In this document: one piece after another, positions 58,557-62,657 of the stretch
Layout of the letters: each line of letters starts with the position of its first letter
Position numbering within the stretch: the first letter of the stretch is position 1
Assembly: GCF_010686655.1 (NCBI RefSeq)
Contig: NZ_JAAGVY010000030.1
Location: 1-62,657 of the forward strand
Origin: Cryomorpha ignava
GTDB lineage: Bacteria > Bacteroidota > Bacteroidia > Flavobacteriales_D > Cryomorphaceae
Direction: 5' to 3'
Length of the DNA stretch: 62,657 bases
Position numbers and translations under genes: made by a program
Notes under the pieces: generated by a model
What the model was told of the DNA's origin: nothing
The model's input: only the letters and a program-made list of their open reading frames with translations
Database searches by the model: none

Positions 58557-60989
58557 ATGTTCGAATCAATCGGATTACAAGATATAGTGGATAGCGAAAC
58601 AGAATTTATACCTTTAATAACATCGGAAGATGAAGAGGCGATGAATAATGAAGAAACTCCGCTTGAATTGCCCATTCTTCCAATAAAAAATACGGTTTTA
58701 TTTCCAGGCGTGGTACTGCCAATTACGGTAGGCCGCGATAAAAGCATTAAGCTTGTGCAAGATGCCTACAAAGGCGATCGCACTATTGGGGTGGCAAGCC
58801 AAAAAGATCAAGGGGTTGAAGATCCTGAATTTGAAGACCTGAACAATATTGGAACGGTTGCCAAAATTATACGACTTTTAAAAATGCCCGATGGAAGCAC
58901 CACGGTAATTATACAAGGTAAGAAGCGTTTTGAAATGATAGACGTGCTTGCTACCGAGCCATACATGCGGGCAAAAGTGCGCGAATTTGCTGAAATAAAG
59001 CCACAGCGCAATATTAAGAAGTTTGAAGCGCTTGTAGATTCGTTAAAAGATTTGGCGCTACAAATCATCAAAGTATCGCCGAATATTCCGAGCGAAGCAG
59101 CTTTTGCCATAAAGAACATTGAGAGCTACAGCTTTTTGATCAATTTCATTTCGAGCAATATGAATGCCGCCGTTAGCGACAAGCAAAAATTGCTTGAAAC
59201 TGCCGATTTGCGGAAGCGCGCCGAAATGGTTTTAGAATATCTTACCAAAGAGCTGCAAATGCTCGAGCTGAAGAATGATATTCAGAGCAAGGTGAAAACG
59301 GATATTGATCACCAACAGCGTGAGTACTTTCTGCACCAGCAGCTGAAAACCATACAGGAAGAGCTTGGCGGAAATCCGCAGGATGAGATGGTGCAAAATT
59401 TAAAAAAGCGCGCCAAAGACAAAAAGTGGAATGAGAAGACCGCAAAAGCTTTTAAAAAGGAAGTTGAGCGGCTGGAGCGGATGAATCCGCAGGGAGCTGA
59501 TTATTCGGTGCAACTCAATTATATTGAGCTTTTGCTTGACCTGCCGTGGAATCATTACTCAAAAGATAAATTTGATCTCGCACGCGCTCAAAAAATTCTT
59601 GATCGCGATCACTACGGACTTGAGAAAGTGAAGGAACGTATTATAGAGCACCTTGCAGTTTTGAAATTGAAAGGCAGCATGAAGTCGCCAATATTGTGTC
59701 TTTATGGCCCTCCCGGAGTTGGTAAAACATCTCTTGGTAAATCTGTTGCAGAGGCGCTTGGCCGCGAATATGCGCGTATGTCGCTCGGCGGTTTGCGCGA
59801 TGAAGCAGAGATTCGCGGGCACCGAAAAACGTATATCGGCGCCCTTCCGGGAAGGATTATTCAAAATATTAAAAAAGCCGGGACGTCAAATCCTGTTTTT
59901 ATTCTTGATGAGATGGACAAACTGGGACGCGATTCGCACGGCGATCCGTCTTCGGCAATGCTCGAAGTTCTTGACCCGGAGCAAAATAGTACATTCTACG
60001 ATAATTATGTAGAGCTCGATTACGATCTATCAAACGTTATGTTTATTGCTACTGCAAATGCGCTTGGCACCATACACCCCGCCCTGCGCGACCGTATGGA
60101 GATGATAGAGGTTAACGGATATACCGTAGAAGAGAAAGTAGAGATTGCAAAACGCCACCTCGTTCCGAAGCAAATTAAGCAAAACGGTGTACCTGATAAA
60201 GAAATCAAACTCGGAAAAGGAGTTTTAGAAAAAATCGTTGAAGATTATACCAACGAATCCGGAGTACGTGGTCTTGAAAAACGAATTGGAAAAGTAGTTC
60301 GTTTTCGCGCCAAGCAAATGGCGCTTGACGAAAAATACACAACTACGGTAATGGTAGATGATTTGGAAACCATACTTGGCCCATCGCATGCCAGAGATAA
60401 ATATCAGGACAATGATGTAGCCGGAGTTGTAACCGGACTGGCGTGGACTCCAACAGGTGGTGACATTTTATTTATTGAATCATCGCTTACCAAAGGAAAA
60501 GGGAAGCTTACCCTTACCGGAAATCTGGGCGATGTAATGAAAGAATCGGCTATGCTGGCGCTTGAATTTTTGAAATCACATTCAGATACCATTGGCCTTG
60601 AGCAGGAAGTTTTTGACAAATGGAATGTCCATATCCACGTGCCGGAAGGTGCTACTCCAAAAGATGGCCCATCGGCAGGTATTACCATTCTTACGGCTCT
60701 CGCTTCGGCGTTTACCCAAAGAAAGGTTAAGAAATATTTGGCTATGACGGGTGAAATAACTTTGCGTGGAAAAGTGCTTCCCGTAGGCGGAATAAAAGAG
60801 AAAATTCTCGCTGCCAAACGTGCGAACATCAAGGAGATTATTCTTTCGAGTAAAAACGAGAAAGACATCAACGAGATTAATCCGCGATATATCAAAGGAT
60901 TGACTTTCCACTATGTGGATGACATGATGGATGTGATAGACAAAGCACTCACCAATCAAAAGGTTGAAAAAGCGCTGAAAGTGGCTTAA
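58557..60989 (+). CDS. lon: ATP-dependent protease Lon
   Basis: An 810-residue AAA+ serine protease of the cytoplasm that degrades misfolded and regulatory proteins. N-domain about 38-240 (ELPILPIKNTVLFPGVVLPI), AAA+ domain with Walker A GPPGVGKTSLGKS (about 384-396), Walker B VFILDEMDKLG, sensor IATANALGTIHPALRDR, and a protease domain with Ser706 (KDGPSAGITI) and Lys749 (GGIKEKILAAKRA). All motifs are intact. Length and N-terminus fit the family. It ends 24 bases before a strong terminator. Confidence 0.97.
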   Translation: MFESIGLQDIVDSETEFIPLITSEDEEAMNNEETPLELPILPIKNTVLFPGVVLPITVGRDKSIKLVQDAYKGDRTIGVASQKDQGVEDPEFEDLNNIGTVAKIIRLLKMPDGSTTVIIQGKKRFEMIDVLATEPYMRAKVREFAEIKPQRNIKKFEALVDSLKDLALQIIKVSPNIPSEAAFAIKNIESYSFLINFISSNMNAAVSDKQKLLETADLRKRAEMVLEYLTKELQMLELKNDIQSKVKTDIDHQQREYFLHQQLKTIQEELGGNPQDEMVQNLKKRAKDKKWNEKTAKAFKKEVERLERMNPQGADYSVQLNYIELLLDLPWNHYSKDKFDLARAQKILDRDHYGLEKVKERIIEHLAVLKLKGSMKSPILCLYGPPGVGKTSLGKSVAEALGREYARMSLGGLRDEAEIRGHRKTYIGALPGRIIQNIKKAGTSNPVFILDEMDKLGRDSHGDPSSAMLEVLDPEQNSTFYDNYVELDYDLSNVMFIATANALGTIHPALRDRMEMIEVNGYTVEEKVEIAKRHLVPKQIKQNGVPDKEIKLGKGVLEKIVEDYTNESGVRGLEKRIGKVVRFRAKQMALDEKYTTTVMVDDLETILGPSHARDKYQDNDVAGVVTGLAWTPTGGDILFIESSLTKGKGKLTLTGNLGDVMKESAMLALEFLKSHSDTIGLEQEVFDKWNVHIHVPEGATPKDGPSAGITILTALASAFTQRKVKKYLAMTGEITLRGKVLPVGGIKEKILAAKRANIKEIILSSKNEKDINEINPRYIKGLTFHYVDDMMDVIDKALTNQKVEKALKVA

Positions 60990-61012
60990 GACATTTTGAT
61001 AGAAATAAAGTA

Positions 61013-61045
61013 AAAGCCCCGACAGATAAACTGTTGGGGCTTTTT
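61013..61045 (+). terminator. Intrinsic terminator after lon
   Basis: AAAGCCCCGACAG-ATAAA-CTGTTGGGGCTTT stem (one G-T pair), then a T run. Confidence 0.9.
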
Positions 61046-61083: not shown

Positions 61084-61201
61084 GCCCACTGGGCATGCGC
61101 CCTGCGGAATCTAAAATTTCATCTACAAAAATTGTAGATTATCTATTTCATAGGTAGCCTTAGATTTATTCCGCAGGGTGGATACCGCTGCGGAGCGGCT
61201 T
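61084..61201. repeat. Long palindromic repeat unit, copy 1
   Basis: About 118 bp: left hairpin GGGC-ATGC-GCCC flanked by GCGGAAT, central hairpin ATCTACAA-AAA-TTGTAGAT, and right hairpin CCGCAG-GGT-GGAT-ACC-CTGCGG. The right end GCGGAGCGG is complementary to the CCGCTCCGC left end of other copies; here the left end is degenerate. Confidence 0.85.
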
Positions 61202-61252
61202 CAGACTAACCACTGGTGGAGCAGATAATCAGACCGTATCTTCAATAAAAAC

Positions 61253-61376
61253 CCGCTCCGCTGGGCATGCGCCCTGCGGAATCTAAAATTTCATCTACAA
61301 AAATTGTAGATTATCTATTTCATAAATAGCCTTAGATTTATTCCGCAGGGTGGATACCGCTGCGGTGCGGCTTAAG
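61253..61376. repeat. Long palindromic repeat unit, copy 2
   Basis: About 124 bp, nearly identical in its core to copies 1 and 6, with the full CCGCTCCGC left end and a GCGGTGCGG right end. The spacer after it (AGACAAACCAGTG ... CATCTTCAATAAAAC) resembles the spacer after copy 1, so the tandem unit is about 170-185 bp. Confidence 0.88.
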
Positions 61377-61437
61377 ACAAACCAGTGCGGTGCGGATATT
61401 CAGAGGGCATCTTCAATAAAACTACGCTCCATCGACG

Positions 61438-61575
61438 CGCTCCGCTGGGCATACGCCCTGCGGAATATAAATTTTATTTATGAGAAATTTAGTAATCTTG
61501 TATAATAAATAGTCGTAGGACTTAACTTTCTGCGTCGACCGACGACCGCTCCGCTGGGCATGAGCCCTGCGGAAT
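61438..61575. repeat. Degenerate third unit and half unit next to RAYT
   Basis: The left hairpin of the unit occurs at 61438-61466 (GGGC-ATAC-GCCC) followed by a degenerate body, and again at 61546-61575 (CCGCTCCGCTGGGCATGAGC then CCTGCGGAAT), which ends 33 bases before the RAYT start codon. Confidence 0.78.
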
Positions 61576-61608
61576 AGGTTTTCATTTCAAAATTTAATTA
61601 TTCGCAAA

Positions 61609-62187
61609 ATGACAAGGCAAGGCATCAAGCAAAATATTAAAAACAATACATCTTATTTTATTACTCCAACCGTAATTGGTTGGATAGATATATTCACGAG
61701 AAGAGAAATTCGAGATATCGTTATCGAGTCGTTGCGCTATTGCCACTACCACAAAGGTTTGAATGTTTATGGTTATTGCATTATGTCAAATCACTTACAC
61801 CTTATTGTCAACTGCAACGAACCTTTTCAATTGAGGGACACAATTAGGGATTTTAAAAGACATACATCAAGCACTATTTTTCAATGGATTATGGGCAACC
61901 CCGAAAGTAGAAGGGATTGGATGACAGGGCTATTTACCGGAGCTGCTAATGAAGATATTAAGAGCAAGAATATTAAAATTTGGCAAACCGGAAACCATGC
62001 CATTGAGTTGATCAACGAACAGTTTACCTGGAGAAAAGTATTGTACATTCATGATAACCCGGTGCGAGCAGGGTTGGTATCGAATCCGGAAGATTGGATT
62101 TACAGTTCTGCTCGAAATTATATTGAAAAAGAAGCTGTATTTGAGGAGGTGAGTTGTCTGCCTCCACCATTGAATTTTAAGAAATAA
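61609..62187 (+). CDS. REP-associated tyrosine transposase (RAYT)
   Basis: A 192-residue HUH single-strand DNA nuclease/transposase related to IS200 TnpA. The metal-binding pair His62 and His64 lies in MSNHLHLIVNCNEP; LRDTIRDFKRHTSSTIFQ is the following helix, and the nucleophile is probably Tyr146 in VLYIHDNPVRAGLVSNPEDW, a motif specific to RAYTs. The C-terminal IYSSARNYIEKE also matches. Start choice: the first ATG (61609), 33 bases after a REP half unit. It surely recognises the palindromes around it, by family logic, since RAYTs process REPs with a matched gene nearby; that is inference. It is not closely related to the RAYT at 31794. Confidence 0.9.
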   Translation: MTRQGIKQNIKNNTSYFITPTVIGWIDIFTRREIRDIVIESLRYCHYHKGLNVYGYCIMSNHLHLIVNCNEPFQLRDTIRDFKRHTSSTIFQWIMGNPESRRDWMTGLFTGAANEDIKSKNIKIWQTGNHAIELINEQFTWRKVLYIHDNPVRAGLVSNPEDWIYSSARNYIEKEAVFEEVSCLPPPLNFKK

Positions 62188-62222
62188 TTTTTTTTTGGGG
62201 GGGATGGTTAGTTCGGAAGGTG

Positions 62223-62252
62223 ATTCCGCAGGGCGCATGCCCAGCGGAGCGG
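62223..62252 (-). repeat. Inverted half unit downstream of RAYT
   Basis: Exact inverted complement of the left 30 bases of the full repeat unit (GGGCATGCGCCC hairpin with CCGCTCCGC edge); on the plus strand it reads ATTCCGCAGGGCGCATGCCC onwards. Confidence 0.85.
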
Positions 62253-62533
62253 TTCGTATTTCATGACGGTAGTGGTATGTAATTTCTAATAACCAGTCAC
62301 CTATGTATGTTAACGAAATATGCCTTAATATTAAAATTTCTGTTTTTTTTTGAAATGTGGGCATCAAAACAAGACCCCAAAGGTTGGGAAACTTAGCACA
62401 GCGTTTTCATGCCGCAAAGCAAGTAAACCTTTGAGGTCAACACAATAATTGAAACACAATAATTGAAACACAATAATTGATTCCCCAGACTTTTTATAGA
62501 TAAAGAGTTTCCAGAGCATGCGCCGAACGGAAC

Positions 62534-62657
62534 CCGCTCCGCTGGGCATGCGCCCTGCGGAATCTAAAATTTCATCTACAAAAATTGTAGATTATCTATT
62601 TCATAGGTAGCCTTAGATTTATTCCGCAGGGTGAATACCGCTGCGGAGCGTCTTAAG
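62534..62657. repeat. Long palindromic repeat unit, copy 6, at the window edge
   Basis: About 124 bp, nearly identical to copies 1 and 2 (GGTGAATACC in place of GGTGGATACC, right end GCGGAGCGTC). It ends with CTTAAG, as copy 2 does. The array may continue beyond the window. The stretch 62253-62533 between copies has no gene. Confidence 0.87.

Follow-up and report, generated by a model that had tools for sequence, protein, structure and literature searches.

The repeats beside lon in Cryomorpha ignava very probably belong to a REPtron, in which a RAYT gene is enclosed by two of its own REP hairpins in inverted orientation and REPINs are found on both sides. The window, meaning the whole stretch of DNA analyzed (62,657 nucleotides, ending with contig NZ_JAAGVY010000030.1, here C30), had been proposed in a preliminary description to hold a REP-RAYT system, and this proposal is borne out by the family assignment of the encoded protein, by inverted REPs on both sides of its gene and by the agreement of REP with RAYT over many loci. 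Such a locus is known in kind, and the partnership is less studied in Bacteroidota. RAYTs, or TnpA-REP proteins, are HUH single-strand nucleases related to IS200/IS605 transposases. By analogy with E. coli TnpA-REP, the RAYT protein would act in trans on single-stranded DNA, recognize a REP hairpin by its imperfect stem and 5′ foot, cut beside the hairpin, and move or copy REPINs into intergenic DNA. Binding, cleavage and transposition are thus predicted from this analogy. What can be read from the sequence is the RAYT family and its catalytic motifs, the inverted REPs, the REPIN architecture, the mostly intergenic position of REP arms elsewhere, the match between REP class and RAYT clade, and the absence of the array from the gap between lon and porQ in three relatives. 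Among the points against the REPtron reading, no mobility event was seen, and the full units are undispersed, with all four at the lon-porQ locus if contig C98 follows C30.

Architecture of the repeats

The features of the locus are as follows.

58557-60989: lon (identified by Pfam)
61012-61044, forward strand: terminator-like hairpin 3′ of lon (consensus match)
61084/6-61204, forward strand: REPIN copy 1 (left REP 61084-61110, inverted right REP 61168-61198)
61253-61376, forward strand: REPIN copy 2 (left REP 61253-61282, spacer 61283-61339, inverted right REP 61340-61370)
61438-61518, forward strand: degenerate unit, a left REP with decayed spacer (78% over 83 columns)
61546-61575, forward strand: single REP just upstream of the RAYT gene (97% identity, foot outward, z -4.3)
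61609-62187, forward strand: RAYT gene (192 aa; NHLH at 61-64, WQ at 125-126, YIHDNP with Tyr146)
62222-62252, reverse strand: single inverted REP just downstream of the RAYT gene (100% identity, foot outward, z -3.5)
62534-62657, forward strand: REPIN copy 3, stopping at the end of contig C30

The array starts past the terminator-like hairpin, whose consensus matched two sites against a mean of 1.6 in shuffles. Three nearly identical copies of about 120 bp and three half copies had been described here, and all were recovered. The units are 121-124 nt long. Aligned with copy 2 over 127 nt, copy 1 is 93% and copy 3 is 96% identical to it, so that the conservation extends over the full length as had been claimed; full-length unit matches in a search of the own genome have E values of 5e-50 or lower. 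A pattern for the REP gave 20 matches, and a control pattern read backwards gave none. The left REP of copy 1 is devoid of the usual foot, and the right REP of the degenerate unit is unrecognizable. Copy 3 lies at an assembly break, because position 62657 is also the end of C30.

The preliminary description took the repeat for a unit much longer than the classical REP. It is instead composed of two inverted REP hairpins of about 30 nt, separated by an A+T-rich spacer of 57 nt, which is the architecture of a REPIN or BIME. As single-stranded DNA, the two inverted REPs and their spacer fold into one long hairpin, as expected of a REPIN (-32.4 kcal/mol, z -7.0, with none of 200 shuffles as good). 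The left REP alone folds at -11.2 kcal/mol (z -4.1) into a hairpin whose stem has a single T-T mismatch and whose loop is four bases long, and the four single REPs folded alone gave z values of -3.5 to -4.3. A long REP of a new type was also considered and was rejected because both arms fold independently as a REP of about 30 nt. Compensated hairpins, likewise described, were not found: among 44 base pairs compared across four copies, none is altered on both sides, two are altered on one side (T-A to T-G), and five are lost, each in one copy. No Rfam family matched the repeats at the gathering threshold.

The spacers between tandem copies had been called conserved, and this is partly so. Between the tandem copies 42 nt align at 79%, and positions 1-206 of contig C98 match window positions 61198-61403 at 93% with the inter-unit spacer included. 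Copies 1 and 2 follow each other at a spacing of 172 nt and have partly common flanks. Tandem duplication of a 172-bp segment probably contributed more to the near identity of the local copies than separate insertions did, and the spacing and common flanks fit the tandem REPIN clusters of Pseudomonas fluorescens, as far as the available text of PMC3116915 describes them. The recent spread proposed earlier holds only in part. The close similarity of the copies is accounted for by tandem duplication that included their flanks; REP arms, and REPINs with other spacers, do occur elsewhere, but full units are found only in the window and on C98, probably in a single array. The 172-nt array went unreported by Tandem Repeats Finder, which listed only a 14-nt repeat, present as three perfect copies at 62439-62480, between the RAYT gene and copy 3.

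The two arms of the unit are not alike. The right arm at 61340-61370 (GGTATCNACC centre) is closer to the REP at another RAYT gene of this genome, on contig C83 (L042, C83:6462-6489; centre GGGTATCAACCC, a GGTATC centre), than to the REPs at the window RAYT. Given this resemblance, two REP classes may be combined in the unit as a hybrid. The E. coli REPtron and its BIMEs likewise pair one RAYT with more than one type of REP (Y, Z1 and Z2, according to the part of PMC6006769 at hand, compared with the left and right arm types here), and E. coli REPs share the stem irregularity (PMC8266576, from an incomplete text). With the REPINs of P. fluorescens SBW25, as portrayed in the accessible portion of PMC3116915, the locus has in common the inverted REP doublet with spacer, the tandem clusters of near-identical REPINs that include flanks, and the position of such clusters beside RAYTs. 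It differs from SBW25, for which the same portion gives 430 REP doublets, in that full 124-bp units were found only at this locus, in that the arms are of two subclasses, and in that there is no GTGG or GTAG foot.

The RAYT protein and the distribution of its REPs

The protein scores 97.2 bits against the NCBIfam model REP_Tyr_transpos (NF047646; cut-off 80) and 32 bits against Pfam Y1_Tnp (cut-off 23). Residues N61, H62, H64, W125 and Y146 are invariant in nine aligned sequences, so that both the HUH motif and the catalytic tyrosine are conserved; Q126 and the D of YIHDNP are variable, the other eight sequences having N or Q at the latter position. A profile of the nine sequences found E. coli TnpA-REP (4er8) as its best match among solved structures, making this the nearest solved relative, although the match is weak (E 8.5e-5). 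The gene is flanked by 97% complementary hairpins, the REPs at 61546-61575 (forward) and 62222-62252 (reverse).

Judged by its motifs, the window RAYT most closely resembles subclass 2.6, a Bacteroidetes group which, in the available part of PMC6006769, is stated to contain RAYT group 5 of Bertels et al. 2017. According to that part, the two have in common NH[LIV]H, WQ, two serines following the core (YSS in the window), a similar length (192 aa against a median of 179), a mostly Bacteroidetes distribution, and flanking hairpins that lack GT[AG]G and recur at other places in the genome. The tyrosine motif differs at its fourth letter, with YIHDNP in the window and YIH[QN]NP in the subclass. 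Moreover, the structures of subclass 2.6 are called atypical and weaker there, whereas the window hairpins are strong and G+C-rich and a GCT-type foot recurs.

The RAYT model has nine matches in the own genome at E <= 0.001, of which four are above the cut-off (contigs C49, C30, C83 and C80). For the C49 and C80 genes dN is 0.038 and dS 0.246, the C80 gene itself being decayed; dS could be estimated in one of five pairs. Directly upstream of the C49 RAYT (2127-2829), an internally shortened copy is present (L041, C49:1790-2114), whose 5′ part is similar to the start of the RAYT gene (173 nt, 97%) and whose 3′ part is similar to its end and flank (117 nt, 91%). This copy would resemble a MITE-like derivative. 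In genome G007, a RAYT fragment with one stop (C126:4500-4993, L171 region; 59% identity over 93 aa) adjoins two REPs of the C49 class.

A search of the own genome with the 124-nt unit gave 31 matches, four of them full length: three in the window and one at the start of C98, with none elsewhere in this draft assembly. Some copies may have been missed, because scoring covered 40 of the 47 first-look candidates and the assembly is split into 149 contigs. The arms are more widespread. Sites matching the left-arm REP with at most three mismatches were counted in 60 genomes, and the own genome has 23, G005 has 30, G007 has 31, G002 has three and G003 has four, with none in the other 55. Only the own genome, G005 and G007 encode a RAYT of at least 70% identity, so that genomes in which a close RAYT is present carry 23, 30 and 31 sites and the 57 others carry 0-4. 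Equal numbers of the repeat in genomes lacking the RAYT, named in the preliminary description as an outcome that would argue against a RAYT-driven family, were thus not seen among these 60 genomes, which are few, related and mostly drafts. This comparison is not independent of kinship, as G005 and G007 belong to one genus and all five positive genomes to one family. In G002 and G003, drafts in 240 and 490 contigs respectively, REPs are present but a RAYT search at E 1e-10 was negative; this either speaks against a strict link or is an effect of draft assembly. In G007, 16 of the 31 left-arm (class A) sites are an outer-stem variant, CCGA or CCGG with TCGG, at two to three mismatches.

Other REP classes have other distributions. 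For example, the right-arm class, counted in 20 genomes, has 20 sites in the own genome, one in G007 and none in the other 18. The class found beside the C49 and C80 RAYTs, which was counted within three mismatches and so includes the GGATTTGCAATCC and GCAGTTGCACTGC variants, is present in 13 of the 60 genomes (16 sites in G001, 16 in G007, 12 in G040, 11 in G002, eight in G003, eight in G024, six in the own genome, and one or two in each of six more).

Placement was assessed for 38 of the 43 left-arm and right-arm sites of the own genome, those within the sequence examined. Only three of the 38 lie in stop-to-stop ORFs of at least 150 aa, which make up 76% of the bases examined, but the sites are clustered and hence not independent. 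Among the 23 left-arm sites, for example, ten are on C48 and six on C30; in G005, about half are on the RAYT contig. The arms thus have many extragenic sites (23 and 20), and related doublets occur elsewhere, whereas all four 124-bp units are at one probable locus.

REPINs of a second subfamily, which has a different spacer, are found at five places (L055-L059, on C27, C20, C15, C14 and C4), with 146-250 nt aligned at 94-99% identity and with outer flanks that differ where seen; the C15 copy is cut by the start of the contig. The copy on C4 (L059) is bracketed by a 74-nt perfect direct repeat (C4:55911-55984 and C4:56177-56250). To our knowledge, direct repeats around a REPIN are not expected of this enzyme class. 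Arrays of REP-bearing units, tandem and interspersed at a spacing of 102-103 nt, are present on C48 (L039, 2266-9683) and C31 (L049, 59634-59960).

Co-divergence of REP and RAYT was examined at 88 loci, comprising 79 loci from the best 80 of 409 relatives in named genomes, which are apparently Bacteroidota throughout, and nine from our own analysis. At 66 of these, by our rule, the RAYT gene lies between inverted repeats that form a hairpin; the other 22 were missed by the search for inverted pairs (one because of short flanks), and the own C83 locus and that of G005 are among them. Over the 66 loci, RAYT distance and REP distance are correlated (Mantel r 0.513), and none of 9999 permutations was as high (maximum 0.142). 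Stem class, defined after the hairpins had been viewed and labelled from one hairpin per locus by our own scoring rule, requires 15 changes on the RAYT tree compared with a mean of 32.4 when shuffled (0/300 as low). All 11 loci with a CCGC/GCGG stem fall inside the window RAYT's clade of 15, which has an SH-aLRT value of 99 in a quick tree made without bootstrap. At the level of sequence, these data indicate that REPs stay with their RAYT. Linked DNA would co-diverge to some degree even when there is no recognition, and therefore the Mantel signal is silent on whether a RAYT binds its REP.

The lon-porQ site and alternative readings

Contig C98 opens inside a repeat, holds the fourth full unit, and continues with genes that we take to be porQ, cmk and ispH from their ORFs. 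With porQ of C98 as query, matches were obtained in 18 of 20 genomes, and lon lies within the fetched flank of porQ at 9 of 17 loci in relatives. The two genes are about 1.1 kb apart in G005, while their aligned parts are separated by 142 nt in G003, 66 nt in G004 and 117 nt in G006; the latter three loci contain neither a RAYT match nor such a REP. Because porQ is on C98 and lon and porQ are neighbors without the array in relatives, the array probably arose as a single insertion into the lon-porQ gap and has partly grown by tandem duplication. Contig C98 would then probably follow C30, and all four full units would belong to the lon-porQ array. The site, filled here and unfilled in three relatives, is a handy model. 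The ORFs around the RAYT genes of G001, G005 and G007 differ from those of the window. The plan of a forward REP, the RAYT gene and a reverse REP, with REPINs outside, is common to the window, G007 and G001 (the latter with an extra single REP); on the RAYT contig of G005, all 14 REPs have the same orientation and there is no inverted pair.

Whether the locus is better called a TIRtron is largely a naming matter. In that case the gene would be a TIRYT, a tyrosine transposase whose terminal inverted repeats are not related to GTAG REPs. This name covers RAYT-like genes flanked by non-GTAG inverted repeats, some of which are self-complementary and many of which are REP-like in dimers or clusters, as set out in the available text of PMC3733652, and a GTAG foot was found at none of our 66 loci. 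Nevertheless, we consider this reading unlikely, since every repeat is a complete short hairpin, occurring as doublets and singlets, the protein matches the NCBIfam RAYT model, and subclass 2.6 is treated as TnpA-REP with atypical structures in the part of PMC6006769 that we could use.

Alternatively, inert palindromes might have been amplified locally by slippage or unequal crossing-over, with the RAYT as a bystander or relic. Tandem amplification probably accounts for the local near identity, in view of the 172-nt spacing and common flanks of copies 1 and 2 and of the spacer-containing match on C98, and to that extent it is merged with the REPtron reading. It also agrees with the lack of full units elsewhere and with the REP-unit arrays on C48 and C31, contigs on which no RAYT match was found. 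As an explanation of the whole locus it is quite improbable, because it leaves unexplained the REP arms at other sites, the matched REPs that flank RAYT genes in many genera, and the tracking of RAYT clade by REP class. Very unlikely indeed is the view that the repeats are RNA-level elements with a host function (terminators, mRNA stabilizers or regulators of lon or the RAYT gene) rather than mobile DNA. Their mostly intergenic placement and strong hairpins would suit such elements, and roles in termination and mRNA stability have been hypothesized for REPs (PMC3733652, in its available part). Yet there is no Rfam match, lon has its own terminator-like hairpin ahead of the array, the gap between lon and porQ lacks the array in G003, G004 and G006, and REP class tracks the RAYT. 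An RNA-level role is possible as a secondary function of the repeats.

A recurrent foot other than GTAG

The best lead from this locus is a recurrent foot that is not GTAG. The REPs of the window have CCGC/CGCT at this position and thus fall outside the GTAG-tagged superfamily. In the available text of PMC8266576, cleavage of single-stranded REP by E. coli TnpA-REP takes place at a CT next to the hairpin and depends on both GTAG and a stem bulge; GTAG is essential there, whereas the window REPs are without it. We tentatively suggest, at somewhat less than even confidence, that RAYTs of this Bacteroidota group recognize other feet, GCT above all and also GAT and GTT, and that changes in the protein have been accompanied on several occasions by changes in foot and stem. 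If so, these enzymes would be single-strand nucleases re-specified in nature, a series in which guide and cleavage site could be read from sequence. The RAYT biochemistry in PMC8266576, as far as its text was available, concerns REPs with a GTAG foot. RAYTs for which the stem of the REP, and perhaps its foot, tracks RAYT phylogeny without GTAG would make guide recognition and cleavage-site choice testable on many natural pairs.

Subclass 2.6 was already stated to lack GT[AG]G (PMC6006769, in the portion available), and hence the new part may be the recurrence of one particular foot. We did not find a GCT-type foot for Bacteroidota REPs in the literature consulted on RAYTs, REPs and REPINs, although the supplementary table of PMC6006769 may list such REPs. 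GTAG is present at none of the 66 loci on the 5′ side and at one on the 3′ side; as only 1.6 occurrences are expected in random 10-mers, this represents lack of the canonical foot and not avoidance. The foot labels, likewise taken from one hairpin per locus by our scoring rule and lacking at 20 of the 66 loci, require 10 changes on the RAYT tree over the 46 labelled loci (16.1 when shuffled, 0/300 as low). When unlabelled loci are included as "other", the signal is weaker, with 27 changes where shuffles average 32.0 (3/300 as low). By comparison, GCT occurs at the 5′ edge of the stem at 32 of the 66 loci and on the 3′ side at 10, while random 10-mers from the same flanks gave a mean of 6.8 and a maximum of 18 in 2000 draws. 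Because the loci are related, this recurrence is a lead and not a proof. The GCT foot is found at 11 of the 15 loci in the window RAYT's clade and at 21 of the 51 outside it.
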